A DNA stretch of 20,275 bases. It comes from a virus. A program made the position numbers and the translations under genes. The stretch spans positions 1-20,275 of IMG/VR virus record IMGVR_UViG_3300031951_001512. One strand, 5' to 3'. Below, piece by piece: positions 3-20,052 of this stretch. The notes below the pieces were generated by a model. It was not told the origin of the DNA and did not search any database. It was given only the letters and a program-made list of their open reading frames with translations. Positions within the stretch are counted from its first letter, which is position 1. Each line of letters opens with the position of its first letter.

Positions 3-3000
3 CGTACAAGCCTACGCGATGCAGTAACTCGCAAGGTTATTGATGAAAAAGAAGCACTGCAAATCCTCAATGACTTTATTGCTGCACCTAATGAAGGTGT
101 AAAAAATGAGATTATCGAGAACTATGCCAAGACTGTAATCCGTAATGCTGCCATTAACTATGGACACCATGAGGATATTGCAGAACTTGCTGTCAATACC
201 TATATCAAGACACATCGCCTAACCAAAAAAGAAGCAATGCAGGCGAAGGAACAGAACCGTGCATACATGGTTGGCGCAGATGGAACTGCTATGTCTGACC
301 CACAGTTGATTACTCAACTTGCTAACGGTGCTTATCTTCCAGATGTTGCAATCATTGATAAGGCATTCAAGGAGTTTGGAACACGTCCTGGTTCTATTAC
401 CAAGGCTGGTCGTTCAACTCTATACGGCGTAAAGACAGCGCTTGATGAACTACAAGCCATCTGGCGTGGTGGAACATTGGCACGTGGTGGTTTTACTGGT
501 AACATTCTTCGTGATGCTAACTTTCGTGCATGGGCAGATACTTCAATGTTCTCCCTATACTCACAGTTAAGCACAAGCAGCCTAGATGCTGTAACTAATG
601 GACTTAATACAGTCAAGAAGATTGCATCTTGGGAGAAGGACTCAATTAGTCCTAAGCGCAATATGCGCAACATTCGTGAGTCTATTGATGAGAACGATAA
701 GATTCTCAAGAAGATGGAAGCACGTCTAGAGGCAGAAGGTTTCTATAAGAAGCCTAAGAAGGGTGCAAAGCCTGTAGAGATTACACCAGCAATTCAGCGT
801 GTTGTCGAATACAGAGATAAGATTGCAGCCACTCTAGCAGAATTACGCCGCCAAGAGAAGGCTATTGTTGACAATATCCCAACTCAGGTAATCAAGAAGG
901 ATAAGATTAGCGTATCTGGTTGGGATTTCCCAGCACCGCTTTCTGGTCAACTTGGTGAGATTAGCCGTCAGAAGTTAAACGGCAAAGAAGAGATTCGTGG
1001 TGCGCTAGCATCTGTTCGTGAACTAGAGATGGAATCTGTACGCCGTGGAAGTTACGGTGGCAAGGTTTACCATGCTGTGGACAATGAAGCAGAGCACCTT
1101 GTAGCATGGACTGACATGCTTAATAACCACCTACGTAATGACCCTCTTGCGGTTAAGATTATGGAAGGCGAGATGAGTAAGCCAGAGTTAATGAACTGGC
1201 TACAAGAAAACTCTCAGCGTTCCTACATTGACCGTTTCGGTCTAACCGTAGTTGAAGAGGGTAAGCCTGCACGTCGACTACGTCGTGATGATGCAGAATA
1301 CATTTATGACCGTGTTAACTTTGCCGTAAACAGCATTGCTGCTAATGAGCAGGTTCGCAAGTTGGTTCTCAATAACCAATTGACGGCGGTTGAACTCAAG
1401 AAACTGTACCCAGTAGTTGCAGAACGTCCACCAGTATCTGGAGATGTCACAACTAATGCATTAGGTAGAGGAAGTCTAGCACGTGTTCTGCCTAACCTTC
1501 AAAAGGATATAGTCCAGTACTTGGCAACACAGCCAACTTCTAAACTTAACTACAATCACTACTTTGCAGCAAAGTACTATGAGAAGTTAGAAACTCTAGT
1601 AATGAATGCTAACGAACGTGGTGTCATTCCTGGTGCAAAGCAGAAGGTTCAGTACGAAAAGATTGCTCGTTCTTACGCAATCAATGAGTATCGCAGCAAG
1701 ATTAACGCGTTCTCAAAGGATATGAACTTTGCTGGACTAATGAACTATGTTATAGCCTTCTTCCCTGCGGTTGTAGAGCAGTTCAGAGCATACGGACGCA
1801 TTATGATAGATAACCCAGAGTTGCCTATCCGTCTTGCTTATGCAGCCCAGATTCCAGAATACATTGCAGATACACAAGAAGATGCCTATGGCAATAGATA
1901 CATTGAGTACACTATGCCATACACAGGACTAAAGGCACGTTTTGGAGTTGAATGGTTTAATCCAATTAACCCAACATCTGGTTCTATTCTATCTGCTGGT
2001 CCACTAGCAACTACTGGTGCTAACCTTTTTGCTAAGCAAACAGACTTTGCTGATAGTAAACTAGGTAGTTTCTTACTACCATTTGGTGTATCAACTAACA
2101 ATATGTCTGCTTATACTCCTAATACATGGAGAAAAGCATCTGAGTTGTATAAAGCCTGGAGAGGCGATGGAGAGCAGTTCAACAGAGATGTGAACATGAT
2201 TTCCAAGCAGTATCTATTTGACTTTATTGAAGATAATGATAAGCAACCAAGTCCGTCTCAGTTGAATCAGATTCAGATTCGTGCAGAGAAGGACGCATTA
2301 GCATTATCTGTATTGAAGTTCGTATCATCATTGACACTGCCACAGCAGCCAAAGATGCGTACAGCAATCTCATTCTATCAGGATAGATTCAACGAAGCAA
2401 TGAAGCAAGACCCAATTAATGGCGCAGAAGAGTTCATGAAGGATAATCCTGAGTACTTTATGCTTGCTGATAAGTTGGAGAATAACCTATCTGGTATTCG
2501 TGCAGACGAAACAGCGGTTGCTTTGCTACAGCGCAACAACATGGCAACAAGAGAGATAGTTACAAACGTTACAGACCTTACCGCATTAGGTGCAGTCTTT
2601 AATGATGATAACTATGCATTCTCAAGTGCAGCAGATGCTTACCTTCGCACACAGAAGATTCCTGGCTTGGACAGTAAGTACAAGGCTAGCGAAGCATCAC
2701 TTCTTAACATGAAGTCAACTGTTGTTAACAAGGGTTGGACTGATTGGTTTAAGTTAATTCAGGTAGTTTCAACAGAGATGAAGAAGCCACCGTATAACCT
2801 AGACCCTGCACGTGGCTACGGAGACGTAGTTCTACAGCAGTACAAGGACGCTTTCATCGAGCAACAGAAGACTGAAAACCCTATGTGGTACGATGAGAAG
2901 ATTAACAGTTCTGGTGGCGGAGACAAGGGTAGAATGGCTAGCGTTATCAAGGCTGTTACTATCGCTGCTAATACACCTGAGATGTGGAAAGACTTATCTC

Positions 3001-3245
3001 AGCAACCACGCTGGTCTGCTATTGTTGAATACATGAACTTCCGCTATCAGATTAACGATGAATTAAAGCGTCGAGACATCGGATACGATACCAAGTCAGC
3101 AATTGACCTACGTAATCAAGTCACACTTAAGGTGTGGGAGTTACGTAACAAGGATGTAAAGTTCGGTCAGTTCTATGACAGATATTTTGATGGAGATGAC
3201 TTTAGTGTTGTCTTCGATTATACACCACCAAAGAGGAGCAAGTAA
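3..3245 (+). CDS. Very large internal virion-type protein, 5' end outside the window
   Basis: The reading frame is open from base 3, so the ATG at 237 is internal and the gene begins left of the window. At least 1080 codons are visible. By visible residue number, 220-291 is charged and helical, likely coiled coil. Around 167-174 there is a short NILRDANF motif, reminiscent of N-R-D motifs in large polyvalent phage proteins (weak resemblance). A hydrophobic stretch at about 580-592 (YVIAFFPAVVEQF) is followed by a helical, polar C-terminal half. There is no signal peptide, nuclease or protease motif I can recognise. It overlaps the next start by one base (TAATG) and heads a four-gene set upstream of the scaffold. 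Its size, helicity and place suggest an internal or ejected virion protein. A fusion carrying a portal or MuF-like part further upstream cannot be excluded. Function is inferred. Confidence 0.8.
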   Translation, partial: RTSLRDAVTRKVIDEKEALQILNDFIAAPNEGVKNEIIENYAKTVIRNAAINYGHHEDIAELAVNTYIKTHRLTKKEAMQAKEQNRAYMVGADGTAMSDPQLITQLANGAYLPDVAIIDKAFKEFGTRPGSITKAGRSTLYGVKTALDELQAIWRGGTLARGGFTGNILRDANFRAWADTSMFSLYSQLSTSSLDAVTNGLNTVKKIASWEKDSISPKRNMRNIRESIDENDKILKKMEARLEAEGFYKKPKKGAKPVEITPAIQRVVEYRDKIAATLAELRRQEKAIVDNIPTQVIKKDKISVSGWDFPAPLSGQLGEISRQKLNGKEEIRGALASVRELEMESVRRGSYGGKVYHAVDNEAEHLVAWTDMLNNHLRNDPLAVKIMEGEMSKPELMNWLQENSQRSYIDRFGLTVVEEGKPARRLRRDDAEYIYDRVNFAVNSIAANEQVRKLVLNNQLTAVELKKLYPVVAERPPVSGDVTTNALGRGSLARVLPNLQKDIVQYLATQPTSKLNYNHYFAAKYYEKLETLVMNANERGVIPGAKQKVQYEKIARSYAINEYRSKINAFSKDMNFAGLMNYVIAFFPAVVEQFRAYGRIMIDNPELPIRLAYAAQIPEYIADTQEDAYGNRYIEYTMPYTGLKARFGVEWFNPINPTSGSILSAGPLATTGANLFAKQTDFADSKLGSFLLPFGVSTNNMSAYTPNTWRKASELYKAWRGDGEQFNRDVNMISKQYLFDFIEDNDKQPSPSQLNQIQIRAEKDALALSVLKFVSSLTLPQQPKMRTAISFYQDRFNEAMKQDPINGAEEFMKDNPEYFMLADKLENNLSGIRADETAVALLQRNNMATREIVTNVTDLTALGAVFNDDNYAFSSAADAYLRTQKIPGLDSKYKASEASLLNMKSTVVNKGWTDWFKLIQVVSTEMKKPPYNLDPARGYGDVVLQQYKDAFIEQQKTENPMWYDEKINSSGGGDKGRMASVIKAVTIAANTPEMWKDLSQQPRWSAIVEYMNFRYQINDELKRRDIGYDTKSAIDLRNQVTLKVWELRNKDVKFGQFYDRYFDGDDFSVVFDYTPPKRSK

Positions 3246-3985
3246 TGGTTGACCCAATTATTGGTAGAAAGCCTACGCCATCACCAACTGCTACGCCGTC
3301 TCCTGCACCCGTTCCTGCTGGTCTTGGTGTATCGATTGCTCAGGCTGCAAAGAATACTCAATTAAATATCAAGACACCTACAAGCGTATCTGTTGATACA
3401 GTTAACTTTGTATCCAGCCTAACTAAGGCACAGATGAAGCAGATTATCCCGTGGCTTGATAAGTTTGGTGCTAGCAAGACAGATATTGCAACTGTTGGCA
3501 ACGCTAAGAAGTATCTACAGAATAACTTCAATACCTATGTTGAGAATGCTGGTAATAGTGTAACTAAACTAATCCAGTTGTTTAAGGATGACTATCTTCC
3601 ATCCTCAGACCCAGATGCCGATAAAGGCCCTAAGTCTAATGGCGTAACCCAATATATTACACAGAAGTCGCCAGCGTTACTAAAGCAAGATGTTGATAAG
3701 TTCCTTTTGGAGAAGGTTGGCAGCACCAACATTAAAGAAGAATCTCGTCAAAAGATTATGGATGAGATTAATAAGATGATTGCCGAAGGCACAACTACAA
3801 CTAGCAAGATGACTAAATCTGGCAAGACAATAACAACTCAGACTGCTGGATATAGCGAAGAGCGTGCAGGCGCTGTTGTAGAGCGCGTCGCAAAAGAATT
3901 AGAACCAGAGAAGTATGAACAACAGAAGCAACTAAACTTCTTTGACTTCATGCAACAGGCAGAACAAATGCGAGGTGGCAGATAG
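3245..3985 (+). CDS. Hypothetical structural-module protein with Pro-rich N-terminus
   Basis: This 246-aa protein of unknown function has its ATG at 3245 sharing a base with the upstream stop (TAATG), so its translation is probably coupled to the giant protein. Residues 9-25 are a Pro/Thr/Ser/Ala linker (TPSPTATPSPAPVP). The rest is polar and probably helical, with Lys/Glu-rich segments and a short aromatic motif near the C-terminus (NFFDFMQQAEQMRGGR). No membrane segment or catalytic motif is visible. It lies between two proteins that look like internal virion components, so a minor virion or assembly role is the best guess. I do not recognise the family. Confidence 0.8.
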   Translation: MVDPIIGRKPTPSPTATPSPAPVPAGLGVSIAQAAKNTQLNIKTPTSVSVDTVNFVSSLTKAQMKQIIPWLDKFGASKTDIATVGNAKKYLQNNFNTYVENAGNSVTKLIQLFKDDYLPSSDPDADKGPKSNGVTQYITQKSPALLKQDVDKFLLEKVGSTNIKEESRQKIMDEINKMIAEGTTTTSKMTKSGKTITTQTAGYSEERAGAVVERVAKELEPEKYEQQKQLNFFDFMQQAEQMRGGR

Positions 3986-5049
3986 TGGCTGATTTAGCAG
4001 GCTTTAGAGCAGCAGAGGCTGTATCTGCGGCTGACATAGCAGGAGATGCCGTTAAGGGAATGTCACCTGGCTCAGCATGGGTATTTAATGAGAAGACAAA
4101 GAAGTGGGAAAAGCCTGCTAAGCCAACTCAGGGTAACAAGACTTATACTTGGGATGACAATAATGGTTGGGTTGCTAGTGGTGTTGATACATCTGGACTA
4201 ACAGCAAGCCTTGGCTTTGTTCTTTCTCGAGCACTTCTTGATGACCCTACATATGGTAAGGGTCCTGGAGGGCTACAAGAGGTCTACGACCTATGGGCTG
4301 CTGGAGACCAAACCGCAGCACTTAATGCATACTTTCAGTCTAACTACTACCTAAAATTAGGTAAGACCGCTGCTTCACGTTATTCGCTAAAGTTGAATCA
4401 ACCAGAAGTGTATGCTGCTGATGAGGCTGCTTATATTTCTAATCAGAAGAATCGCCTATTCAAACTGGGTGTTCGAGTTGAAGATAACGAACTTACTGAT
4501 TTACTTAAGAAGGCATTTTCTGGCAACTTAACAGATACTCAATTAGATTCATCTATTGCTTTGACAAATAGTTTTGGTGGTAAGTTCGGCGGAACTATCC
4601 TCACCCAAATACAGGACCTCAAGAATACTGCTCGCTCATACGGATTATCATACACTGAGGCTAAGTATAATCAGTGGGGTGCTGACCTATTTGCAAATCG
4701 CATCACAGATTCAGAAGTTGAAGAAGCGATTAAGGTTGAATCAGCAAGTAAGTATCCAGCATTTGCGGACCAGATTATGAAGGGCGTAACTGTAGATGCA
4801 CTAGCATCTGCTTACAAGTCTTCAATGGCTACAATCCTTGAGATTGATGCAGACTCTATTGGCTACAATGACCCAACTCTTATGAAGGCACTACAGTATG
4901 TAGGACCAGATGGTAAGCCATCAAGCAAGCCACTATGGCAATTTGAATCAGACTTACGTTCTGATGCTCGCTGGCAGTTTACAAACAATGCTAGAGATTC
5001 AGTTGATTCTTTGCAATATAAGGTTATGAAGGATTGGGGACTAATGTAA
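3985..5049 (+). CDS. Hypothetical helical virion-associated protein
   Basis: This 354-aa protein starts at GTG 3985, which overlaps the previous stop as TAGTG. No nearby ATG gives a comparable coding length. The N-terminal 65 residues are polar with several Trp (SAWVFNEKTKKWEKP, then a DDNNGW motif). The remainder is a run of soluble helical segments rich in Ala, Tyr, Asp and Leu, ending KVMKDWGLM. In composition and pattern it resembles the C-terminal half of the next gene's product: Tyr/Ala-rich helices with repeated 'YG' and 'A..Y' spacings. The two may be distantly related internal virion proteins. That relation is an impression, not a computed match. There are no transmembrane segments or enzyme motifs. 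Confidence 0.8.
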   Translation: MADLAGFRAAEAVSAADIAGDAVKGMSPGSAWVFNEKTKKWEKPAKPTQGNKTYTWDDNNGWVASGVDTSGLTASLGFVLSRALLDDPTYGKGPGGLQEVYDLWAAGDQTAALNAYFQSNYYLKLGKTAASRYSLKLNQPEVYAADEAAYISNQKNRLFKLGVRVEDNELTDLLKKAFSGNLTDTQLDSSIALTNSFGGKFGGTILTQIQDLKNTARSYGLSYTEAKYNQWGADLFANRITDSEVEEAIKVESASKYPAFADQIMKGVTVDALASAYKSSMATILEIDADSIGYNDPTLMKALQYVGPDGKPSSKPLWQFESDLRSDARWQFTNNARDSVDSLQYKVMKDWGLM

Positions 5050-6908
5050 TGGCAGCAGCAGATGCAGCAAATGAGGCACGTTTAGCAGCCGCTAAGAACG
5101 CGGCTAAGACTTTAACACAGGCAGAGATTGCCGCTAAGACAGCAGAGCAAGTTGCTGCTGGTGTAAAGAGCACAGACAGAGCAGCACGTCTTCCAGGCGA
5201 AACTGCAACGGAAGCAAATGCTCGTATTACTGCAGCATACAAAGAACAACCTAAGCCTGAGTTAACTCAAGAAGGTAAAGCAGCAGGAGCAACAATTGAA
5301 TTTGTTCGCACTGGTGCTGGCGGTGTTGGTGTATACAAAGAAGTTTTTCCAACTGGAGTACCAATTCCAACAGTAAGAACAACAGTTTCTGGCGCTCAAG
5401 TTGATGCAACTGGAAAGCCAACTGGAGAAACGGGAACACCAGCAGTGGCTACTGTACCTGCCGATAAGGTTGTTACTAGCACGCCTGCTGTTAACCCTAA
5501 TGCAACTCTCGCTGCTGGCGGTTCTTCTGCTGGTAAGGATTCAACTGGAAAAGAAATCTTTTACAAAACAGAAGGCGGAAACGGTGTAAGTTTTTATTAT
5601 GCCGATGGCTCCAAGGTTCCAGTAGACAATCTTGTTGGTGTCCCACAGACTGTTGATTTTGCAAATGCTGGTTGGTCTATTCAAGGTTTACCAGTAGGTC
5701 AGACTCCTGCATCAGTAAAATACGCAGATATAATTCGTAATGAATCAGCAAAGGGAACTCAACCTGGTGGCAATTCATACATTGCTGGAGATGTAGTAGT
5801 TGTTAACGATGTGAATGGTGTCAGCCTATACAATCTTGATGGCAAACTTATTTCTGGCAAAGGTTCACAATACCAAATCGGAATGGGTACAACTGGCGGA
5901 AAGCAGATTAATATTGCAGCAGTTGGTACATTTGGTCAGCCAGACTATATGCCAAATAAGGCAACAGGAACAACAGCAACCGTTCCTTCACCATTTACCA
6001 CTGCTACAACAAGCACCGCTACAACAAGCACTGCTACTACTAGTACAGCAACCACAAGTACTGCTGGGCTAACAACAACTCAGTACAACGACCGTATGGG
6101 TGTTTACTCAGCAATGGCTGATAGATTCAACAAGTACGGACTAACTGGTCTTGCTAATAAGATTAAAGAACTTGCTATCCAAGGAGCAACAGAAGCAACA
6201 ATTACTCTGCAACTCCAGGAGACACCAGAATATCAGCAACGATTTGCAGCAAACGCTGACCGCATTAAAAAGGGTTTAGCAGCATTAACTCCTGCAGAGT
6301 ATGTCAATGTTGAAGATTCGTATCGTCAAGTACTACGTGCTTACGGACTAAAGCAGTTCGACAACGACGCATATGTCAAGCAATTTATTGCTAACGACAT
6401 GTCACCAACAGAACTTTCTAACCGTGTTGTTACAGCAGTGCAGCGTGTACAAAATGCAGACCCTGCTATCATCAGTCAACTTAAGCAATACTACGGTATT
6501 GGTGCGGCTGACATGGTTGGCTATGTACTTGACCCAGAACAGCAGTTCCAGAAGATTGAGCGCCAGATTGCAGCATCAGAAATTGGTGTCGCTGCTGCTC
6601 GTCAGGGACTAAAGGCTGGAGTATCAGTTGCAGAGCAACTAGCAGCACAGGGTGTAACCGAGGCAGAAGCACGCAAGGGTTACTCAACTATCGCAGACAT
6701 TCTTCCAACTGCAGAGAAACTATCCGACATCTATGGTACAACCTTAGAAGGATACGGACAAGCAGAAGGTGAACAAGAAGTGTTTAACCAACTCGCATCA
6801 GCACAGCGTAAGCGCCAGCAACTCACAGCACGTGAGATTGCAGCCTTTAGCGGTTCATCTGGTGGAGCAAAGACGAGCCTATCTACATCTAGCGTAGGCC
6901 AATTCTAA
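5049..6908 (+). CDS. Ala-rich internal virion-type protein with TTSTA repeat linker
   Basis: I place the start at ATG 5049 (TAATG overlap with the upstream stop), not at the in-frame TTG 5034, because the same junction recurs through this module; this gives 619 aa. Residues 1-60 are an Ala/Lys/Glu helix. About 70-310 are Gly/Val/Thr-rich and probably beta. Residues 320-339 are four copies of TTSTA. About 345-619 are helical, with a C-terminal tail of Ser/Gly ending SSVGQF. The helical half, with its 'LTPAEYVNVEDSYRQ' and 'QLKQYYGIGAADM' elements, matches my memory of a family common in phages attributed to Actinobacteria, where it is normally left unnamed. It is the last gene before the non-coding spacer and scaffold. 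An internal virion or ejection protein is plausible but unproven. Confidence 0.82.
   Translation: MAAADAANEARLAAAKNAAKTLTQAEIAAKTAEQVAAGVKSTDRAARLPGETATEANARITAAYKEQPKPELTQEGKAAGATIEFVRTGAGGVGVYKEVFPTGVPIPTVRTTVSGAQVDATGKPTGETGTPAVATVPADKVVTSTPAVNPNATLAAGGSSAGKDSTGKEIFYKTEGGNGVSFYYADGSKVPVDNLVGVPQTVDFANAGWSIQGLPVGQTPASVKYADIIRNESAKGTQPGGNSYIAGDVVVVNDVNGVSLYNLDGKLISGKGSQYQIGMGTTGGKQINIAAVGTFGQPDYMPNKATGTTATVPSPFTTATTSTATTSTATTSTATTSTAGLTTTQYNDRMGVYSAMADRFNKYGLTGLANKIKELAIQGATEATITLQLQETPEYQQRFAANADRIKKGLAALTPAEYVNVEDSYRQVLRAYGLKQFDNDAYVKQFIANDMSPTELSNRVVTAVQRVQNADPAIISQLKQYYGIGAADMVGYVLDPEQQFQKIERQIAASEIGVAAARQGLKAGVSVAEQLAAQGVTEAEARKGYSTIADILPTAEKLSDIYGTTLEGYGQAEGEQEVFNQLASAQRKRQQLTAREIAAFSGSSGGAKTSLSTSSVGQF
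6006..6065 (+). repeat. Four tandem 15-bp units encoding TTSTA
   Basis: Units lie at 6006-6020, 6021-6035, 6036-6050 and 6051-6065. Each encodes Thr-Thr-Ser-Thr-Ala. The DNA units differ at synonymous positions (for example AGC/AGT, ACA/ACT/ACC, GCT/GCA) while the peptide is unchanged. It joins the beta-rich and helical halves of the protein and is probably a flexible linker. Confidence 0.85.
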
Positions 6909-7024
6909 AATCCTGAACGGACCTATCGGCCCCGTCAGCGTAACAGACCGAGAGTAGGAGCCAGCCAGTTTCCCCGAACTGAACTGTGGCCTGCGAACTA
7001 CAACGAATAGAAGGGTGGGTTGCT
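6909..7024 (+). promoter_or_regulatory. GC-rich structured spacer before the scaffold gene
   Basis: This is the largest gap in an otherwise packed plus-strand operon (116 bases). It is visibly richer in G and C than the flanking genes. It can form a hairpin at 6966-6981 (stem CAGTT/AACTG, loop TCCCCG) and alternative short stems further upstream (ACGG/CCGT around 6917-6935, or TCGG/CCGA). There is no U-run, so it does not look like a terminator, and I see no convincing -35/-10 pair. A purine-rich GAAGGGTGGG precedes the scaffold ATG. A leader RNA, processing site or late promoter controlling head genes would fit the position. Confidence 0.4.
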
Positions 7025-7498
7025 ATGAGCAACAACTACTGGGATGATGAAGACGACGACCTCGATACCGACAATGAGGCGCAAATGGACGGCAGTGACT
7101 TACTTAAAAAGTTACGCAAAGCCAAGCGTGCTGATGAAAAGCGTATCAAGGAACTTACAGAGCAACTTGAGGGATTTTCCAAGGCGCAGCGTGAGTCAAC
7201 CGTTAAAGCAATCCTAGAACAAAAGGGTGTAAACCAGAAGGCAGCGCGTCTAGTCCTCAAGGACTTAGACGGTGATTTCTCAGAAGAAGCAGTTACAAAC
7301 TGGCTTGATGAGAACGCTGACTTGTTTGGCATTGAAGTCTCTCAGAGACCAGATAGTCAAAATCTCGCTACACTACGTCAGCAAGATGTAATGACACAGA
7401 ATGCCGTTACACCAGACAGAGCACAAGACATCGAGCAGCGCATGAACAATGCAAGTTCAATGGAAGAACTCATGTCTTTAATGCAAAGTCAACAATAA
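7025..7498 (+). CDS. Capsid assembly scaffolding protein (predicted)
   Basis: I choose ATG 7025 over the in-frame GTG at 6986 because the ATG follows a purine-rich ribosome site (GAAGGGTGGG) and the extra 13 codons fall in the structured spacer. The product is 157 aa. It has a very acidic N-terminus (residues 4-18 are mostly Asp, Glu and Asn), a charged helical or coiled-coil segment at about 26-50 (KKLRKAKRADEKRIKELTEQ), a middle domain with SEEAVTNWLDEN, and a Met/Gln-rich C-terminus (MEELMSLMQSQQ). Small acidic helical proteins directly upstream of a capsid gene are typical phage scaffolds that guide procapsid assembly and then leave. The C-terminal helix would be the likely capsid contact. 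The assignment rests on position and composition, not on a family motif. Confidence 0.75.
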   Translation: MSNNYWDDEDDDLDTDNEAQMDGSDLLKKLRKAKRADEKRIKELTEQLEGFSKAQRESTVKAILEQKGVNQKAARLVLKDLDGDFSEEAVTNWLDENADLFGIEVSQRPDSQNLATLRQQDVMTQNAVTPDRAQDIEQRMNNASSMEELMSLMQSQQ

Positions 7499-7528
7499 TA
7501 TCCGTTCATAGTCAAGGAGACTAATACA

Positions 7529-8731
7529 ATGGCAAACGCCTATACAGATACCTCGTCCACCTCGTTTGGTGGTACAGTAGGTGGCGCAGGTCTCGTACAG
7601 AAGGCATATGACCGCCTTCTCGAGTTCGCTCTCCGTTCAGAACCCCTAATTCGTTCTGTCGCAGATAAGCGCCCAGCAAAGCAAGCAATCCCAGGTTCAA
7701 CCGTAGTTCTACAGAAGTACGTTGACCTAGATGCAAAGACATCAACACTAACAGAGACAGTTGACCCAGATGCAGTAGCATTGTCAACACCAACATCTGT
7801 TACAGTAACACTTAACGAGTACGGTAACGCTGTGCTTGTAACACGTGCGTTGGAACTATTCTCTCTAGCAGATGTAGACCCAGCAATCGCAAACATCATT
7901 GCTTACAACTTGGCAGATTCTATCGACCAGGTTGCAATGACAACTCTACGCTCAGGTTCAAACAACATCTACGCAGGCAACGCAACATCAGTTGCTGGTG
8001 TAGATGCAGCAGACACACTAGACTCAGCAGACATCCGTCGCGCTGTAGCGAAGTTGCGCTCGAACAAGGCTAAGGGCCGTCGCGGCAATGCATACTGGGT
8101 TGGTATTCACCCAGAAGTTTCACACGACCTTCGTGCAGAGACAGGCGACCTTGGATGGCGCTACCCACAGTCACAGTCTGCAGAGAATGCATCTAAGGTC
8201 TGGGCTGGAGAAATCGGTGAGTACGAAGGCGCATTCTTCGTAGAATCATCACGTTTGTACAACGCTAAGTCAGGTGCAGACCAGACAGCATTGGCAACAA
8301 CAGCAGCAACAGTTGCTGGAACATCAGCAGGATTCACTGTTGGCGTTGCATCATCATCTGTTATCGCAGCACGCGCTGAGGTCGGAGATAAGATTGCAGG
8401 AACTGGTATCGCATCAGGTGCTAAGATTACTGCTATCGCAACATCAGGTTCAACAACAACAATCACAGTTGATACAGCAAACACTGCAGCAGTAACAGTT
8501 TCAACAACTCTTACTGTAACTCCAGTAACACGCGTATTCGATACAATCGTTGCAGGTTCACAGGCAATGGCGGAAGCCGTAGCAGAAGAGCCACACGTAG
8601 TTATCGGTAACGTAACTGATAAGTTGATGCGTTTCCGCCCAATGGGTTGGTACGGCGTACTTGGCTTCTCAGTATACCGCGATGAGGCTCTATACCGAAT
8701 CACATCAGGTTCATCAATCGCTGCTCTCTAG
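7529..8731 (+). CDS. Major capsid protein, N4 gp56 family (HK97 fold)
   Basis: The 400-aa product forms the icosahedral shell. ATG 7529 follows AAGGAGA at 7514-7520. Family-typical features include an N-terminal arm, then a beta-rich region (GSTVVLQKYVDL, about 56-67), a helix with DIRRAVAKLR (169-177), YWVGIHPEVSHDLR (189-202), the signature-like VWAGEIGEYEGAFFVES (224-240), and a C-terminal MGWYGVLGFSVYRDEALYRI (372-391). The pattern of 'IHP..-.DLR' then 'GEIG-EG-.FVES' is what I recognise as N4gp56. Residues about 246-334 are an extra Ala/Thr/Ser/Gly-rich beta segment inserted between FVESSRLYN and RVFDTIVAGSQAMAEAV. It is followed by tandem stops (TAG TAG) and a hairpin. Confidence 0.87.
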   Translation: MANAYTDTSSTSFGGTVGGAGLVQKAYDRLLEFALRSEPLIRSVADKRPAKQAIPGSTVVLQKYVDLDAKTSTLTETVDPDAVALSTPTSVTVTLNEYGNAVLVTRALELFSLADVDPAIANIIAYNLADSIDQVAMTTLRSGSNNIYAGNATSVAGVDAADTLDSADIRRAVAKLRSNKAKGRRGNAYWVGIHPEVSHDLRAETGDLGWRYPQSQSAENASKVWAGEIGEYEGAFFVESSRLYNAKSGADQTALATTAATVAGTSAGFTVGVASSSVIAARAEVGDKIAGTGIASGAKITAIATSGSTTTITVDTANTAAVTVSTTLTVTPVTRVFDTIVAGSQAMAEAVAEEPHVVIGNVTDKLMRFRPMGWYGVLGFSVYRDEALYRITSGSSIAAL

Positions 8732-9071: not shown

Positions 9072-9518
9072 ATGGGACACGAACACGCAAGCAAAGTTCT
9101 TGAATGGGCATACAAACTAGTAGACGGAGATATGATTCCATACTCCGCTCTCTATGGGTGTGTGTACTGTGATGCTACATCAACAGAACCTTTTCCTGAT
9201 GAGAATGACGTATTCATAGACCATACCAAGTGTGGTCCTGAATGTTTTGGATGCAAAGCAAGAGGGCTTCAAATGAATACTGGCGATGCCAATAGTCAAA
9301 GAAATGCTCCTCGCAAAAGATTTGAAAGCGAATTAACAGCATACGCTAATGCGAAGGCACAAGGAATCCAACCTGGTGGCACTTCGATGGAGAAGATTCG
9401 TGAGGCAGAAAGAGCCTCCGAAGTATTGAATAAGCCATACAATGCTAATTCAATGCCAGATGCAAAACACGTAAATCAATCAACCGCAGCAGTAATGAAA
9501 GAGATAGGACAAGCATAA
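9072..9518 (+). CDS. Cys-rich putative zinc-binding protein
   Basis: I take ATG 9072 as start: it is preceded by GGGGAC at 9064-9069, and the longer in-frame extension would run into the previous gene. The product is 148 aa. Cysteines C30 and C33 (GCVYCD), then C54, C58 and C61 (KCGPECFGCK), form C-x2-C-x20-C-x3-C-x2-C, a zinc-ribbon-like arrangement; H51 is also close. The C-terminal half is polar and helical with many Ala, Glu and Asn. Similar Cys-containing proteins occur in the head-gene region of many actinobacterial phages, usually without a known role. Zinc binding is predicted from the spacing only; DNA or protein binding would both be possible. Confidence 0.8.
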   Translation: MGHEHASKVLEWAYKLVDGDMIPYSALYGCVYCDATSTEPFPDENDVFIDHTKCGPECFGCKARGLQMNTGDANSQRNAPRKRFESELTAYANAKAQGIQPGGTSMEKIREAERASEVLNKPYNANSMPDAKHVNQSTAAVMKEIGQA

Positions 9519-10719: not shown

Positions 10720-10994
10720 TGGCAGTAGGAGTAGCAGGTAGCACATTCGCTGACGAGTTAAATCGTCTTGCAAATGGTGGAACATACCCCACACCAGATG
10801 AGTACCAATCTGAGCAAGGTGCAGCAAATAACTATGCTGAGACTAGTGGCTTGGGTATTATAGCAGCATTAAATATTAAAGCCGACACAAACCGTCAGCC
10901 TGATGATTACAAGATGATGAACGCTATCTGTAATGAATTAGCAGGAACTACTGGACTGTCAGCCGTTGTTGCGTTAAGGAGCATAGACCTATGA
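10719..10994 (+). CDS. Small hypothetical protein before the adaptor
   Basis: This 91-aa protein is not basic, unlike the six genes before it. ATG 10719 overlaps the upstream stop (TAATG). It opens MAVGVAGSTFADELNRLANG and has a PTPDEYQSEQGAANNYAETS middle and a hydrophobic, helical C-terminal part (IIAALNIKAD and GLSAVVALRSIDL). It overlaps the adaptor gene by four bases (ATGA). Position suggests a head-completion or connector-associated role; I cannot name a family. Confidence 0.78.
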   Translation: MAVGVAGSTFADELNRLANGGTYPTPDEYQSEQGAANNYAETSGLGIIAALNIKADTNRQPDDYKMMNAICNELAGTTGLSAVVALRSIDL

Positions 10995-11908
10995 CAACTT
11001 TAGCACAGATGATTGATGAAGTCCTTATCAACCTTTCAGGTTATACGTACCAACAGGACCGTTCGACATATCTTAAGACTGCAGTCACTACACTCACATC
11101 ACCGAGTACAGCACCTACAATCCTATCTCTAGGAGATACGAGCAACGTAGGTAAGGGTATCCTTGAGATTGATGAAGAGTTAATGTGGGTTGATTCATTT
11201 GACCGCGTATCTAATACAGCAACTGTCTCACCATATGGACGTGGATATTTGGGAACACCAGCAACTACACACGCTGCTGATACGAAGGTAACTATCTCGC
11301 CTATCTTCCCACGCTACGTAGTTAAGAAGGCAATCAACGATACTATCCGAGCAATGGGTGCAAGTCTGTTGTCTATTAAGCAGACCACTTTCACATTTAA
11401 TGCAGCAATCAATACATATGAATTTGAGAACCTAAGCATTGAGAATATTCTTACTATGTCATGGCAGGATACAGGTCCTTCTAAGGAATGGATTCGTATC
11501 AAGCGTTGGGACTTTGACCCATTTGCAGATGTAGATACATGGGGTTCAGGCTCACAGACAGTTACTATCTACGACTGGATTACTCCAGGACGTACAGTAA
11601 AGGTTATGTATGCAACACCACCATCAACACTAGAGAATAGTTCAGATGTATTCACGACTACTACAGGTTACGCTGAATCAGCACGTGACATCGTAATTCT
11701 TGGTGCATCATACAGACTATTGGCTTACCTTGACCCAGCACGTGCAGGTCAAATCAGCCCACAGGCGGACGAAACAGATGGCAAGCGCCCATACGGTGCA
11801 AGTGCATCAGCAACAAAGCAACTCTTTGCTCTTTACTCACAACGTCTTAACGAAGAAGTCAGTACACTGCAAAACCAATATCCGCCACGAATTCATTATA
11901 CTCGATAG
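10991..11908 (+). CDS. Probable head-tail adaptor protein
   Basis: The 305-aa product begins at ATG 10991 (ATGA overlap). Residues 1-30 are helical (LAQMIDEVLINLSG). Residues about 37-105 form a small beta module with EIDEELMWVDSF and GRGYLGTPATTHAADTKVTI. There is a helix at 108-125 (PRYVVKKAINDTIRAM), a beta-rich central part with several Trp, and a C-terminal helical region (SARDIVILGASYRLLAYLDP, then LFALYSQRLNEEVSTLQ) ending PPRIHYTR. An N-terminal helix, beta insert and helical C-terminal end fit connector or adaptor proteins that dock on the portal and accept the tail, and its place between head and tail genes agrees. No tail-terminator or tube genes follow, which fits a short tail. 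The family assignment is by architecture and context only. Confidence 0.68.
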   Translation: MTTLAQMIDEVLINLSGYTYQQDRSTYLKTAVTTLTSPSTAPTILSLGDTSNVGKGILEIDEELMWVDSFDRVSNTATVSPYGRGYLGTPATTHAADTKVTISPIFPRYVVKKAINDTIRAMGASLLSIKQTTFTFNAAINTYEFENLSIENILTMSWQDTGPSKEWIRIKRWDFDPFADVDTWGSGSQTVTIYDWITPGRTVKVMYATPPSTLENSSDVFTTTTGYAESARDIVILGASYRLLAYLDPARAGQISPQADETDGKRPYGASASATKQLFALYSQRLNEEVSTLQNQYPPRIHYTR

Positions 11909-11916
11909 GAATATAA

Positions 11917-13689
11917 ATGACAACACGCAATTACTCCTCTCGCTCCCAGCAAACAACACTGACAAGCGCAGTTACCGCTGGCGCATCATCAATGGTTGTC
12001 GTTTCAGGTACAGCGCTCTTGGGTGGTGTAACCATCCCTGCTGGAACAACCTTTACTATCGTAGTAGACCCAGATACAGCGCTTGAAGAAATTGTAGATG
12101 CCACGCAGGTATCTACTAATACCTTTACAATAACACGTGCTATTGATGGCTCATCTGCTCAGGCTCACTCTGCTGGAGCAGTTGTTCGTCACATGGCTAT
12201 CGGTCGTGATTACCGCGAAGCAAATACCCACATTGAGGCTTCTACAGGTGTCCACGGTATCTCTAACTCATCTTCTGTAGTTGGAACAATCGACACACAG
12301 ACACTGACTAATAAGACCCTTACAGCACCTACAATCACCAACCCTAGCATTTCGGGTGCTGGTGTGGATGCAAGCATTGTCTTTGAGGGTGCTACTGCAG
12401 ATGCGTACGAGACTACGCTCACAGTAACAGACCCAACTCAAGATAATACAATTACCCTACCTAATACAACTGGTACAGTAGTTATTGCTACGGCAGTACA
12501 GACTCTTACTAATAAGACTTTAACAAGCCCAACTATTTCAGGTAGCCCTGTTATCACAGGTCTATCATCTGCTGGCATGTCAACATCATCTGCTACTCCA
12601 AAGGATTACGTAGATAGCATTTTAGGTTCTGCAACTGCAGCATCTACTAGTGCAGCATCTGCTGCAGCAAGTGCTACCGCAGCCGCTACATCAGCAACGA
12701 GTGCAGCAGCAAGTGCAACGGCATCTGCTACATCCGCTACAGCCTCAGCAACAAGTGCTACGGCAGCAGCAACTTCTGCTACAAGTGCAGCAGCCTCTGC
12801 GACAGCAGCGGCGACTAGCGCAACCAGTTCTGCAACTAGCGCTACAGAAGCAGCGACATCAGCCACATCTGCTGCAGCAAGTGCAACAGCAGCAGCAACG
12901 TCAGCAACATCTGCTGCAGCGAGTGCAGTAACTGCTGCTAACTCAGTAGCAACAATTGCAGGCTATGCAACCTCATCAGCCAACTCAGCAACTGCTGCTG
13001 CTACATCTGCAGCAAGTGCTGCTACATCAGCAACTAGCGCTGCTGCATCATACGATGCTTTCGATGACCGCTACCTTGGTAGCAAGACATCTGACCCAAC
13101 ACTTGATAATGACGGTAATGCTCTTATAACTGGAGCACTTTACTTCAACTCGGTAATAAGCGCGATGAAGGTCTACAATGGTTCTTCTTGGGACCTAGTG
13201 GCACCAGATACATCTAACTTTATCCAGAAGACAGTACTTACTGCCAAGGGTTCAATCATCGCGGCAAGCGCTGCATCTACGCCATCTGAACTGACAGTCG
13301 CATCAACCAATGGTTATGTGCTTAGTGTTAATAGCGCAAGTGCTACAGGACTTGAGTGGGCAGCACCTAACCCTGGCGATATCACTGGTGTAACTGCTGG
13401 AACTGGATTGACAGGAGGCGGAACCTCTGGTTCTGTAACCTTGCAACTTGACACGTCAAGTGTATATGTGGTACCATCACAGTCGGGACAGTCAGGCAAA
13501 TATCTTACAACCGATGGCTCTGTTGCATCTTGGGGAACTGTATCAAGTTACTCAGCACCAACACTAGGCACAACAGTGGTAACATCTGGTGTGACTATTA
13601 CAACAATTTCAGGATTAACAGACGTAGTACTTAATGGTCCAGGAAGCGTGGCAGATGAACTGACACTACTTCTTATGGGCGCACTCTAA
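11917..13689 (+). CDS. Tail fibre with TLTNKTLT repeats and Ala/Ser/Thr heptad stalk
   Basis: ATG 11917 follows TAGGA at 11906-11910, and the product is 590 aa. Residues 12-95 form a beta module (DPDTALEEIVDA, then TITRAIDGSSAQAHSAGAVV) that is widespread in phage tail proteins. Two TLTNKTLT elements follow (about 129-150 and 195-215), a motif typical of aquatic phage fibres. Residues about 239-378 are roughly 20 heptads of Ala, Ser and Thr, likely a trimeric helical stalk like that of lambda side-tail fibres. Next is a DRYLGSKTSDP-DNDG-AL-TGALYFN element (391-430), and a C-terminal beta region with GDITGVTAGTGLTGGGTSG (488-506). It should form the fibre carrying host recognition or connecting to the neighbouring beta proteins. 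No chaperone domain is seen. Confidence 0.85.
   Translation: MTTRNYSSRSQQTTLTSAVTAGASSMVVVSGTALLGGVTIPAGTTFTIVVDPDTALEEIVDATQVSTNTFTITRAIDGSSAQAHSAGAVVRHMAIGRDYREANTHIEASTGVHGISNSSSVVGTIDTQTLTNKTLTAPTITNPSISGAGVDASIVFEGATADAYETTLTVTDPTQDNTITLPNTTGTVVIATAVQTLTNKTLTSPTISGSPVITGLSSAGMSTSSATPKDYVDSILGSATAASTSAASAAASATAAATSATSAAASATASATSATASATSATAAATSATSAAASATAAATSATSSATSATEAATSATSAAASATAAATSATSAAASAVTAANSVATIAGYATSSANSATAAATSAASAATSATSAAASYDAFDDRYLGSKTSDPTLDNDGNALITGALYFNSVISAMKVYNGSSWDLVAPDTSNFIQKTVLTAKGSIIAASAASTPSELTVASTNGYVLSVNSASATGLEWAAPNPGDITGVTAGTGLTGGGTSGSVTLQLDTSSVYVVPSQSGQSGKYLTTDGSVASWGTVSSYSAPTLGTTVVTSGVTITTISGLTDVVLNGPGSVADELTLLLMGAL
12631..13050 (+). repeat. About 20 heptad (21-bp) units, Ala/Ser/Thr-rich
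   Basis: The protein-level consensus is (S/A)AA(S/T)SAT, with near-perfect copies SAAASAT and AAATSAT alternating. The last third is more degenerate (TAANSVA, TIAGYAT, SSANSAT). At the DNA level the units vary at wobble positions (TCA/TCT/AGT/AGC, GCA/GCT/GCC/GCG). The region makes a long reading frame on the opposite strand, which is an artefact of Ala codons. It is likely a helical trimeric stalk. Confidence 0.88.
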
Positions 13690-16928: not shown

Positions 16929-19145
16929 GTGGCTGGTCGTGATATTACCGAAGGTCGTGCAACGCGGGCAATTGCTGTTGATGTTGGTGTAGTTTCTACT
17001 ACATCTATCTGGCAGAACACTGATGTAGCATACGATACTGCTATTGGCGGTATGCCGTTTATTTATGCTATCAGCGATGCACGTCCTTATATCCGACAGA
17101 CTGCACCGTTCCGTAAGGAACAGTTCGACAATCAAACTGAACCAGGCGAGCAATCACTTACTGGTTGGTGGATTCGTAGTCAGCAGTCTTTCCACGGTGG
17201 AGACGGTATAACCTTTTACGACCCAGCCCAGACTGCATCTAACTCACCTGACCACTATCGCTTTGCCGATAGCAAGGGTGTAGATGTATGGACACAGGGT
17301 AAAGTAACGCTACTTAATAATGTTAATGTAGGACACATTACAACTGGAGCAATAAAATCTAATGGTCGCCCAAATCAATACCTACGTTCGATTAGATGGA
17401 ATGATACTCCAGGCGTTTTATTAGCAGACGAATATGATGTTGATAAGATTGATACCGATGGCAATGAGACACACTTCATTAACTACAATGCTGGCACAGA
17501 TTCAGCGGTATATGCTATCTGCGACGATGGAACATTTGCCTACTGGATTACTAACACATCAACCAAAAAGACTGTATACAAGAAGCCACTGACTGGCACT
17601 TCTGCATCTACAGCAGATGTTACACTGATGTTTGATGAGATTGGCACAATCAACAACGCTGCTATGGAGTATGTAAAAGAGCGTATTGTTATGTGCGCCG
17701 ATAACAAGGTGTATGAGTTTGCTGCATCTGCAGTAGCGATGCCAAGCCCTGTATACACACACCCATCAACAACCCATGTGTACACATCTGTTGCTGCTTC
17801 TGGTCCTGCCATTTACGTATCTGGCTACAATGGAATCCAGTCTAGCATCATCAAGTTTACCCTATCAACTGCTGGCGTTATGCCAACATTGACATCTGCA
17901 ATTACTGCAGCAGAGTTCCCAGTAGGTGAAATCGTACATAAGATTCACTACTACTTAGGTTATATGATTATTGGAACTAACAAGGGAATCCGCGTTGCAG
18001 TAGTTTCAGACCAAGACGGTTCACTTACTTATGGACCTCTTATCGTAGAGACAAGCCAGCCTTGCTATGACTTTGCTAGCCGTGACCATTATGTATGGTG
18101 CGCAACTGGCGTAGATGGTGAACCTGGAGTCATCCGTATTGACCTAAGTTTACAGTTGGAAGCATTGCGCTTTGCTTATGCAAACGATATCTATTATGGT
18201 GGAGTTACAGGCCGTGTCACTACTGCTTGCGCATTTGCTAACGGCACTGACCAATTAGTGTTTGCATCCACTGGTTTAACTGTTGGTGGCACAATCACCA
18301 ATAAGGTTATGACATCAGGTGTTGCAACACTAACAACCGCTACAGCCCATGGGTTGACTACTGGAGATGCTGTATGGGTAGAGGGAGTTGATTCTAACTT
18401 TAACTCTTCTACTGGTCCTTGGACTGTGACGAGTGCAACAACAACAACCTTTACATACACCAGCGCGGTGACTTCAACCGTTGCATCGACTGCAGTATCA
18501 TCAGCGACAGCAGTAGCCAATACTCCTGGCTCTACATACATTCAAGATGACACAGAACTGCTACCAACTGGATACATACAGACTGGCTACATTCGCTACA
18601 ACACGCTAGAGCCAAAGAACTTCAAGCGTCTTATTGCACGCGGTGACTATACCTATGGCTCAATGACACTGGAAACAGTTACAGCAGATGGCACTGAGTA
18701 CGATGTCGTATCTTACGATGCGTCAGTCCCGCCAGTAGAAGTAACTACATCTAATCCACAAGAAGCACAGGAATATCTGGCTTATAAGTTCCTCTTATTC
18801 CGTGATGGTGTTGACAACACTAAGGGACCAATCATGGAAGGCTATCAGGCTAAGGCAACTATCGCTACGCCTCGCCAACGAGTAATGAGATTCCCCGTCT
18901 ATTGCTATGACGTGGAGACAGACCGATACAATGTACAGGTTGGATATGAAGGCAGAGCCTTCGATAGAATTGCCCAACTAGAATCCGTTGAAGAAAACGG
19001 TGACGTTGTAACATGGCAAGACTTAACCACAGGTGAGTCTCGTCAGGCTGTCATTGAACAAATCTCTTTCACTCGCCTCACACCTCCAGACCGTGGATTC
19101 ACTGGTTATGGTGGTGTCATTGATATCACGATTAGGACCGTATAA
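16929..19145 (+). CDS. Large tail protein with propeller-like centre
   Basis: The 738-aa product starts at GTG 16929 with AAGGAG at 16918-16923. Residues 1-130 are an attachment-type N-terminus (MAGRDITEGRATRAIAVDVG, then FRKEQFDNQTEPGEQSL). Residues about 135-440 contain repeated beta strands with YAICDDGTFAYWIT and similar, resembling a propeller. Residues about 449-532 are a Thr/Ser-rich insert with TATAHGLTTGDAVWVEGVDS, an element seen in many phage tail proteins. The C-terminus (RIAQLESVEENGDVVTWQD, RGFTGYGGVIDITIRT) is beta-rich. By size and place it is probably a tail hub, nozzle or minor tail protein. A T7 gp12-like nozzle is one option that would agree with a short tail, but I cannot show homology. 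Confidence 0.75.
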   Translation: MAGRDITEGRATRAIAVDVGVVSTTSIWQNTDVAYDTAIGGMPFIYAISDARPYIRQTAPFRKEQFDNQTEPGEQSLTGWWIRSQQSFHGGDGITFYDPAQTASNSPDHYRFADSKGVDVWTQGKVTLLNNVNVGHITTGAIKSNGRPNQYLRSIRWNDTPGVLLADEYDVDKIDTDGNETHFINYNAGTDSAVYAICDDGTFAYWITNTSTKKTVYKKPLTGTSASTADVTLMFDEIGTINNAAMEYVKERIVMCADNKVYEFAASAVAMPSPVYTHPSTTHVYTSVAASGPAIYVSGYNGIQSSIIKFTLSTAGVMPTLTSAITAAEFPVGEIVHKIHYYLGYMIIGTNKGIRVAVVSDQDGSLTYGPLIVETSQPCYDFASRDHYVWCATGVDGEPGVIRIDLSLQLEALRFAYANDIYYGGVTGRVTTACAFANGTDQLVFASTGLTVGGTITNKVMTSGVATLTTATAHGLTTGDAVWVEGVDSNFNSSTGPWTVTSATTTTFTYTSAVTSTVASTAVSSATAVANTPGSTYIQDDTELLPTGYIQTGYIRYNTLEPKNFKRLIARGDYTYGSMTLETVTADGTEYDVVSYDASVPPVEVTTSNPQEAQEYLAYKFLLFRDGVDNTKGPIMEGYQAKATIATPRQRVMRFPVYCYDVETDRYNVQVGYEGRAFDRIAQLESVEENGDVVTWQDLTTGESRQAVIEQISFTRLTPPDRGFTGYGGVIDITIRTV

Positions 19146-19354
19146 TGTCTACTGCTCAATGGCTAGGATTAGCCGTATCCGTTTGTACTCTAGTTGCCGC
19201 ATTTGCTACAGCAGTACGCTGGTTAGTTAAGCACTACTTGTACGAACTAAAACCTAACTCTGGCTCGAGCCTAAAAGATTCAGTTATTCGCCTTGAAGAG
19301 AAGGTGGAAATCCTTTATCAGATTATGATTCAAAGAGGGAAAGATGGGAACTAA
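19145..19354 (+). CDS. Small single-membrane-span protein, possible holin
   Basis: The 69-aa product begins at ATG 19145 (TAATG overlap with the tail gene). One hydrophobic helix spans about residues 5-27 (WLGLAVSVCTLVAAFATAV), followed by a basic/aromatic patch (RWLVKHYLYEL). A conserved-looking KPNSGSSLKDSVIRLEEKVE segment leads into a short coiled coil that ends KDGN. A single span followed by the 'PNSGSSL-D-V-RLE' motif just before an endolysin is common in phages thought to infect Actinobacteria. It may be a holin, a holin partner or a membrane anchor for lysis timing. Which of the two flanking membrane proteins makes the hole cannot be told from sequence. Confidence 0.75.
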   Translation: MSTAQWLGLAVSVCTLVAAFATAVRWLVKHYLYELKPNSGSSLKDSVIRLEEKVEILYQIMIQRGKDGN

Positions 19355-19821
19355 TGAAGCCTGTTGTCAAGAAAGCCACACCTGCCGCTATTGCTGTCCT
19401 TCGACAAGCCACCAAGATATCTCCATCGCGTACGAAAGCATCCGATGGACTTCTGCCGTCGAAAGCGCATCAAGCACAGAACCCCAACTCAGACCATAAC
19501 ACAGGTCTTGCAGTAGACTTAACTCATGACCCAGCACGCAACATTGACTGTGCTGATATCTATGAACAACTCAAGCGCGACAAGCGAGTAAAGTATCTAA
19601 TCTTCAAGGGTCAGATATGGATTCCAGGCAGAGGTGATAAGCCTTATACTGGCAGTAATCCACATAACAAGCATTTACATATATCAATCAAGGACAACTG
19701 TGGGAATGATGAATCCCCATGGTTCCCATGGTTAGACAAGCCTAAGTTCTCTACTGCTGACCAAGCCAGATTGGCAGCATCCAGACTAAAGCCCCTACCA
19801 AAGAAGAAAGAGAAAAAATGA
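19354..19821 (+). CDS. Endolysin, M15-type (VanY-like) peptidase
   Basis: The 155-aa product has ATG 19354 at a TAATG junction. It carries the metallopeptidase M15 signature: SDHNTGLAVD at 46-55, with H48 and D55 as predicted zinc ligands, and SNPHNKHLHISI at 101-112, where H109 (with H107 nearby) would complete the site. Peptidases of this fold cut peptide cross-links or terminal D-Ala bonds of peptidoglycan. The core is compact, with no separate cell-wall binding domain and no signal peptide, so release needs a holin. The C-terminus (ARLAASRLKPLPKKKEKK) is strongly basic and may assist wall binding. The next holin-like gene overlaps it by ATGA. Confidence 0.87.
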   Translation: MKPVVKKATPAAIAVLRQATKISPSRTKASDGLLPSKAHQAQNPNSDHNTGLAVDLTHDPARNIDCADIYEQLKRDKRVKYLIFKGQIWIPGRGDKPYTGSNPHNKHLHISIKDNCGNDESPWFPWLDKPKFSTADQARLAASRLKPLPKKKEKK

Positions 19822-20015: not shown

Positions 20016-20052
20016 GCATTAAACGCCTTCCAAGGCCCTTTTAAGACAAGAA

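Follow-up and report, generated by a model that had tools for sequence, protein, structure and literature searches.

The four overlapping genes that open this stretch of viral DNA probably form a conserved entry module of the ejection type, which belongs to a lineage of actinobacterial podoviruses and is placed between portal and scaffold. The window, i.e., the stretch of 20,275 bp that was analysed, is the entire IMG/VR record, hence terminase and portal can be seen in relatives only. All features of the window described below are encoded on the plus strand. The module comprises a giant protein (at least 1080 aa), of which the C-terminal 1080 aa are encoded at 3..3245 in an ORF that is open at its 5' end, followed by p2 (246 aa; 3245..3985), which occupies the same slot as gp10 of Immanuel3, p3 (354 aa, GTG start; 3985..5049; phrog_6654, E 6.5e-34) and p4 (619 aa from the ATG at 5049; 5049..6908; phrog_8424, E 1.4e-80). 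Stop and start codons overlap by a single base at the giant/p2 (TAATG), p2/p3 (TAGTG) and p3/p4 (TAATG) junctions; thus, the initial annotation described the four genes fairly as coupled, and 619 aa is a likelier length for p4 than the 624 aa from a TTG (5034-6908) which the ORF listing also offers.

As that annotation had stated, the module precedes scaffold and capsid. The scaffolding protein (157 aa from an ATG; 7025..7498), whose orthologues mostly have 156-159 aa and for which a reading of 170 aa from a GTG (6986-7498) is also listed, matches phrog_7813 (E 6.5e-33) and phrog_648, “head scaffolding protein” (E 3.6e-5), and the major capsid protein (MCP; 7529..8731) matches phrog_1357 (E 4.9e-76). 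Further downstream, there are a conserved 305-aa protein of the tail module (10991..11908; phrog_7578, function unknown, E 1e-91), for which a PDB profile search gave no match of note and an adaptor-like role is a guess from its position, a tail fibre protein of 590 aa (11917..13689; phrog_38058, E 7.7e-182), and a 738-aa protein that is nozzle-like in its AlphaFold2 (AF2) model and Foldseek matches (T7 gp12/P22 gp10 type; 16929..19145). Beyond these lies the gene of a candidate lysis peptidase (19354..19821), whose weak VanY match (PF02557, E 0.062) stays below the cut-off of that family; a 65-aa ORF comes next.

The order TerL, portal, giant, (p2), p3, p4, scaffold and capsid, with TerL and portal as the upstream genes, is common to IMG/VR relatives, a Planktophila phage and the Streptomyces Beephvirinae (cluster BF); for the IMG/VR sets, the labels “Planktophila-type” and “Streptomyces-type” denote similarity only. 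After removal of exact-flank duplicates, 116 p4 ORFs corresponded to 90 loci, 61 of which extend more than 2.5 kb downstream. The MCP gene lies downstream of p4 in every one of these 61; in 59, the first labelled gene after p4 is scaffold, the remaining two being Streptomyces phages with an intervening tRNA cassette. Upstream, a giant of at least 1400 aa is present in 20/20 loci in which p4 starts beyond base 7600. In a second set, obtained via the Streptomyces p3, the labelled genes keep a constant order in 78/78 loci, with p2, p3, p4 and MCP all present in 44. The four-gene module is conserved and its gene order is an ordinary detail of this lineage; the description of the order as unusual is, thus, justified with regard to T7, where the ejection genes gp13-16 come after gp12, but not within the phage's own lineage.

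Within the module, p3 is the most informative protein. In p4, a variable N-terminal part precedes a conserved C-terminal part of ~270 aa; complete close relatives range from 444 to 860 aa, with the final 264-275 aa being 85-92% identical, and phrog_8424 spans residues 323-619 of the 624-aa reading. At least 554 p4 relatives were contained among the 600 pattern-matched stretches listed in the p4 scan. The C-terminal domain of p3 is common to Streptomyces gp11 and gp12 (alignment A3), which bear NlpC/P60 and SLT domains, respectively (Immanuel3, Pfam E 3.6e-30 and E 2.5e-5), while a Pfam scan of the p3 of the window found neither a hydrolase domain nor any other match. In Streptomyces-type relatives, p3 is duplicated in tandem; in the first set, which was not deduplicated for this count, p3 is single in 93 of 95 loci, with two copies only in L002 and L003. 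Among the Streptomyces-query p3-type proteins (131, reduced to 92 after removal of near-identical ones), NlpC/P60 was found in 40 and SLT in 35; Dennebes gp12, for which Pfam gives nothing at E 0.05 or below, is yet SLT-like by eye. A few Planktophila-type p3 and p4 proteins carry LysM: among homologues from which near-identical sequences had been dropped (p3, 97 to 53, with 52 in alignment A6; p4, 103 to 74, with 68 in A7), Pfam finds it in 2/53 p3 and 8/69 p4 proteins, N-terminally in all six matches inspected singly. An ORF of 180-460 aa occupies the p2 slot 83 times per 97 p3 ORFs and is absent from L004. The term “Ala-rich”, which had been applied to the proteins of the module, suits p4 (15.1% Ala) and p3 (12.1%), but neither the giant (9.6%) nor p2 (7.7%). 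The C-termini of p3 and p4 were considered as mutual homologues and rejected (hhalign probability 0.6%). GDSL lipase matches in p4 (3/69, best E 8.1e-4) were taken as chance; the sole match inspected, in L014 (E 0.003), covers residues 309-459, most of which belong to the conserved C-terminal domain.

These same features could also belong to external tail-tip or minor tail proteins, i.e., p3, p4 and perhaps p2 would act with wall-active N-termini from outside the particle and the giant alone would be internal, a reading that we consider unlikely. Streptomyces records in GenBank/RefSeq label gp11 and gp12 “minor tail protein”, “peptidase”, “glycosylase” or “hypothetical protein”, which makes a tail location of p3 possible, and the variable N-termini of p4 resemble receptor-facing diversity. 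However, the genes of the 305-aa protein, the fibre and the nozzle-like protein are grouped apart, beyond the capsid gene, whereas p2, p3 and p4 overlap each other and the giant, which they also adjoin in relatives.

The giant itself is incomplete in the window. Its residue 1 corresponds to residue 546 of a 1625-aa homologue (L005), with residues 546-1625 of which it is 96% identical, implying that the 5' part has been cut off by the contig end. In close homologues that are complete, the protein is 1624-1661 aa long; identity to Immanuel3 gp9 (1648 aa) is 21% over 1054 columns. The AF2 model of the 1080-aa part, of moderate confidence (pLDDT 64.8), is almost all helix. With this model, Foldseek returned 0 matches at E <= 0.001 and VIA a best Z of 9.0 over 72 residues (216-292), which is within the background that the tool states for models of helical proteins; phage ejection proteins are absent from the 50 VIA rows listed, a result that excludes no family. 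Among 42 giant sequences that were left of 71 after dropping near-identical ones (41 of them in alignment A4), just five columns are invariant (Q, L, A, G, F); so little invariance makes it less likely that this part is an enzyme. The idea that the giant may fuse other head functions is not supported in view of the separate TerL, portal and scaffold genes of relatives and of the L005 giant, for which Pfam gives no match at E 0.01 or below. A PHROGs scan of five full-length giants (L002, L004, L005, L129, L130) yielded a match to phrog_167, “tail length tape measure protein”, in one of them (L129, residues 88-325, E 3.1e-7) and a weak match to “tail associated lysin” in another (L005, residues 141-204, E 2.5e-4). 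Both stretches overlap a hydrophobic Gly/Ala-rich segment. With regard to membrane-spanning regions, a hydrophobic segment exceeds the threshold in 17 of 41 giants from IMG/VR (located at 336-354 in one and within residues 71-181 in the other 16), but in 0/3 giants of named phages and nowhere in the 1080 aa encoded here. Phrog_10618 matches the giant of the window, but is absent from the matches listed for the complete giant of L005.

We propose the giant as the main ejection or internal virion protein. That the four products are ejection proteins, as the initial annotation had suggested, is plausible in view of the helical giant and the wall-directed domains on p3 and p4 homologues, although profile searches with the giant, p3 and p4 retrieved no ejection protein of solved structure, and nothing convincing emerged from such searches with alignments A4, A5, A6, A7 and A10. 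A purely structural role in the head, in which the four proteins would build an inner core or portal ring for assembly and not be ejected, would fit the location between portal and scaffold as well as the helical giant; it is, however, very improbable, given that NlpC/P60, SLT and LysM on p3/p4 homologues suggest a role at the cell wall upon entry.

With regard to the tail, the AF2 model of the 738-aa protein (pLDDT 84.6, pTM 0.75) resembles a podovirus-type nozzle. In the PDB, each of its best eight Foldseek matches is to an entry on a podovirus tail (E 2.3e-13 to 1.5e-8, TMq 0.27-0.41); the 50 VIA rows listed (Z 23.8-26.2) are all non-phage, largely WD40-type propellers, and lack phage nozzles, so that the assignment is based on the Foldseek ranking, the gene position and the relatives. 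Nozzle sequences were reduced from 80 to 28 (27 in alignment A5) and later from 71 to 44 by dropping near-identical ones; 15 and 40 of these are in alignment A9. The initial annotation rightly saw no tape-measure-like long gene between capsid and lysis genes: no ORF in this interval is longer than those of the fibre and the 738-aa protein, none after the capsid is tape-measure-like, and the nozzle-like protein of the window explains the absence. Among loci L002-L196, mostly partial genomes, no ORF reaches 900 aa apart from giants, homologues of the fibre and a single antisense ORF; a 1649-aa antisense ORF of Immanuel3 was treated as not coding. According to the respective reports, the cultured Streptomyces phage Abafar is a podovirus with a tail of 16 nm (PMC11536984), the tail of the cultured cluster BF phage Destructrice also measures 16 nm, with “no identifiable tape measure protein” (PMC13097060), and five S. 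scabiei phages of cluster BF are podoviruses (PMC9753666). A short tail without tape measure is, thus, supported for the phage of the window, with electron microscopy found for Streptomyces relatives only. That the phage is long-tailed and the giant its displaced tape measure, as the length of the giant and the one tape-measure PHROG match might suggest, is already contradicted by the 16-nm tails of cultured relatives, the nozzle-type protein, the position of the giant gene before scaffold and the ORF inventory of L002-L196.

Based on the gene order and its conservation, the domain fusions, the nozzle-like fold and the helical content, the entry module probably works as follows. The giant, a helical internal virion protein, would exit the head along with the DNA, with p2, p3 and p4 accompanying it or sitting at the portal. 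The conserved C-terminal domains of p3 and p4 would attach these proteins to the particle, while their exchangeable N-terminal parts would be aimed at the cell wall: NlpC/P60 endopeptidase and SLT lytic transglycosylase on the two tandem p3 copies of the Streptomyces type, LysM in some Planktophila-type relatives, and linker-like sequence in the window. With a short nozzle tail on the virion, a tape measure would be unneeded. Since a literature search found no virion proteomics of the lineage, we infer presence in the particle, attachment through the C-terminal domains and ejection.

If this holds, podoviruses of Actinobacteria might have an ejection system of their own, with no detectable sequence relation to the T7/P22 set, that combines C-terminal virion-docking domains with exchangeable wall-directed N-termini, both p3 hydrolases having been lost or never gained in Planktophila-type lineages; we advance this tentatively. 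In the latter, either another protein would open the wall of the small, streamlined hosts or little opening would be needed. The analysis proposes roles for four “unknown” genes across many environmental phages and a nozzle role for a gene called hypothetical in the Streptomyces matches listed; for Actinobacteria, a set of candidate entry proteins that can be tested would be of use.

Among known systems, Planktophila phage LanE43AprE7 (E7; OX376640) and probably F5 (OX376641), cultured on “Ca. Planktophila” (PMC10202952), share with the window the order giant, p3, p4, scaffold and MCP, at 78-80% (MCP) and 72% (nozzle) identity. The giant is preceded by ORFs resembling TerL, portal and HslV, which carry labels in contigs L110-L113 of the E7 type. 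In contrast to the window, the E7 giant has 1764 aa, E7-type giants being ~14% identical in the alignment, and there is no p2 ORF between giant and p3. The Beephvirinae of cluster BF (Immanuel3, Dennebes, Abafar) have homologues of the giant, p3, p4, MCP, the 305-aa protein, the fibre and the nozzle, arranged as in the window; their scaffold corresponds to that of the window by position and annotation only, with no blastp match. They differ in having p3 as a tandem pair of genes, which bear NlpC/P60 and SLT, as compared to one p3 in the window, and in the tRNA cassette between p4 and scaffold; since the window contains 0 tRNAs and, hence, no such cassette, we regard it as a relative of the Beephvirinae rather than a member. 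Beephvirinae also have an endolysin gene between TerL and portal and no gene annotated as HslV-like. Bacillus phage Page (NC_022764) encodes an MCP that is a remote relative (28.6% identity across 54% of the query). Its 1679-aa gene of unknown function, located, unlike the giant, after the tail genes beside a holin gene, was rejected as a homologue of the latter for want of profile similarity; likewise, its 730-aa tail protein has no similarity to the nozzle profile. No likeness to T7 gp14/gp15/gp16 was detected, be it in sequence with the profiles of giant, p3 and p4 or in fold with the moderate model of the giant. T7 has the order gp8 (portal), gp9 (scaffold), gp10 (capsid), gp11, gp12 and then gp13-16, whereas the module stands before scaffold instead of after gp12, with its largest protein first instead of last. 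Judged by a review on ejection proteins (PMC8954989), gp14/gp15/gp16 and the module are alike in their inferred role and in a large helical protein, whereas the hydrolase domain is on gp16 in T7 and, in the present lineage, only on p3 homologues; the same review describes helical proteins encoded in an operon, among which hydrolase domains have been swapped.

The four genes at positions 3-6908, i.e., the giant (3-3245), p2 (3245-3985), p3 (3985-5049) and p4 (5049-6908), overlap by one base at every junction (TAATG, TAGTG and TAATG) and are followed by the scaffold and then the capsid gene (MCP); the window, 20,275 bp long, is the whole of an IMG/VR virus record, with all assigned genes on the + strand. 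The initial annotation was right in placing four genes ahead of scaffold and capsid, but its description of them as Ala-rich applies to p3 and p4 and not to the other two proteins. The first gene is cut by the contig end: the window giant begins at what is residue 546 in the giant (1625 aa) encoded by the related locus L005. Complete close homologues have 1624-1661 aa, and complete ORFs of at least 1400 aa (n = 66, including one antisense ORF) range from 1536 to 1858 aa.

The distribution of NlpC/P60, SLT and LysM among proteins that share a C-terminal domain shows that p3 has constant C-terminal and exchanged N-terminal parts. Its C-terminal domain is common to gp11 and gp12 of the cultured Streptomyces phage Immanuel3, whose first domains are NlpC/P60 in gp11 (E 3.6e-30) and SLT in gp12 (E 2.5e-5); the Cys and His motifs of NlpC/P60 and the Glu of SLT are seen in these sequences. 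Gp12 of Streptomyces phage Dennebes had no Pfam match at E ≤0.05, though it looks SLT-like by eye. Among 92 non-redundant p3-type proteins found with the Streptomyces query, NlpC/P60 was matched by 40, SLT by 35 and SLT_3 by 6 (counts that may share members), while four (L300, L337, L353 and L354) start close to the C-terminal domain. Two p3 genes are present in 43 of the 44 loci having all of p2, p3, p4 and MCP. In the p3 alignment set A6 (53 members, four from Streptomyces), NlpC/P60 occurs in two, SLT in one and LysM in two, the NlpC/P60 and SLT numbers equalling those of its Streptomyces members.

Variation in p4 follows the same pattern: in complete close relatives it measures 444-860 aa, with the last 264-275 aa being 85-92% identical. 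LysM was matched by 8 of 69 p4 proteins and is N-terminal in all six p3/p4 matches inspected singly. Two p4 proteins share a short segment with the p3 of the window (p3 residues 15-63 in L017 and 25-67 in L010). At the border between the variable and conserved parts of p4, positions 5997-6070 encode a Thr/Ala/Ser repeat (TATTS units), and the 860-aa p4 of L017 (14984-17566), with an inserted array of YTGEYNGKKYxNG-like repeats, illustrates the extent of N-terminal variation.

According to a review on ejection proteins, functional domains are swapped between ejection proteins, and a hydrolase is absent from P22 (PMC8954989). On these observations together, an entry role of the four proteins, putatively as virion components, is favoured. 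The earlier proposal of ejection proteins is plausible and now has better support, and the gene order is an ordinary one within a known podovirus lineage. No treatment of the module was recognised in a non-exhaustive literature search on the family, hosts and ejection proteins.

A model of the giant's 1080 window residues, of moderate quality (pLDDT 64.8, pTM 0.36), is almost wholly helical and gave no significant Foldseek match; the alignment of 42 sequences holds only five invariant columns, which fits a structural protein. Of 41 giants from IMG/VR, three of them with an open 5' end, 17 carry a hydrophobic segment rich in Gly and Ala, which none of the three giants of named phages has; in 16 of the 17 it lies within residues 71-181, a region absent from the window. 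A result that speaks against the entry reading is the match of one giant, among the five scanned at full length, to a tape-measure PHROG (E 3.1e-7). Streptomyces phages Abafar (Manuelvirus, Beephvirinae; PMC11536984) and Destructrice (cluster BF; PMC13097060) have 16-nm tails, five cluster BF phages of S. scabiei are podoviruses (PMC9753666), and Destructrice has "no identifiable tape measure protein", so the literature already notes that cluster BF lacks a tape measure (PMC13097060).

Independently of these relatives' tail data, a podovirus tail is predicted from the model of the window's 738-aa nozzle-like protein (16929-19145; 56 sequences, pLDDT 84.6). Its best eight Foldseek PDB matches are chains from podovirus tail entries (PhiM1 nozzle, Pa223, Kp7, T7, Kp9, P22, Sf6 and P22), the 793-residue T7 chain being gp12, and a viral structure library added matches to entries that bear the names tail tubular protein B and P22 Gp10. 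On its own, the propeller has no diagnostic value, since the 50 VIA-align matches listed are all to non-phage proteins, most of them propellers of the WD40 type. Among the Streptomyces records listed, the homologue is labelled "hypothetical protein".

Small, very Lys-rich ORFs (67, 84, 62 and 78 aa, plus shorter ones) lie between capsid and tail genes (9518-10719), with comparable ones in L004, L008 and L017; they are possibly DNA-binding. The fibre (11917-13689) contains a long Ala/Ser/Thr-rich repetitive stretch, and one homologue reaches 1344 aa (L070). Between fibre and nozzle, ORFs 15220-15894 and 16197-16919 are alike by eye, the latter matching glycosyltransferase family 2 (PF00535, E 3.4e-5). 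Downstream of the final + strand ORF lies an inverted repeat of high GC content with T-rich sequence behind it (20050-20100), which by eye resembles a terminator.

In the phage collection, the giant matched 29 records, all Streptomyces phages; p3 and p4 each matched 30, namely 29 Streptomyces phages and OX376640. The latter is LanE43-AprE7, the name of Planktophila phage E7, which infects the freshwater actinobacterium 'Ca. Planktophila' (PMC10202952, whose main text mentions no electron microscopy). Given the identity to E7 of MCP (78-80%) and nozzle (72%), the host is likely a freshwater member of the Nanopelagicales.

The absent left flank is supplied by relatives: in L005, the genes ahead of the giant encode TerL (phrog_38, E 3.3e-66), the portal (phrog_104, E 2.7e-30), a peptidase of HslV/proteasome-like type (7345-7887; phrog_1040, E 1.1e-24) and a protein of 157 aa. 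TerL and portal thus have genes of their own, and the giant of L005 (1625 aa) had no Pfam match at E ≤0.01, which speaks against the suggested fusion of other head functions in the giant. The peptidase, located between portal and giant, could be a prohead protease; an M/V-T-T N-terminal start is found in 12 of 12 non-redundant sequences (L005 and 11 homologues). The Immanuel3 and Dennebes records contain no gene annotated as such a peptidase.

Deduplication reduced 116 p4 ORFs to 90 loci, 61 of them with >2.5 kb downstream. MCP lies downstream of p4 in all 61, and the next labelled gene is the scaffold in 59, the exceptions being two Streptomyces phages (L002 and L003). A giant of at least 1400 aa lies upstream in 20 of 20 loci in which p4 starts beyond base 7600. 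In a second set of 78 loci, found with Streptomyces p3, the labelled-gene order is kept throughout, with p2, p3, p4 and MCP all present in 44. The order differs from that of T7, where the internal proteins are located after gp12, and from that of Bacillus podovirus Page, where a 1679-aa gene follows the tail genes; yet it is the rule within its own podovirus lineage and, contrary to the initial annotation, ordinary there.
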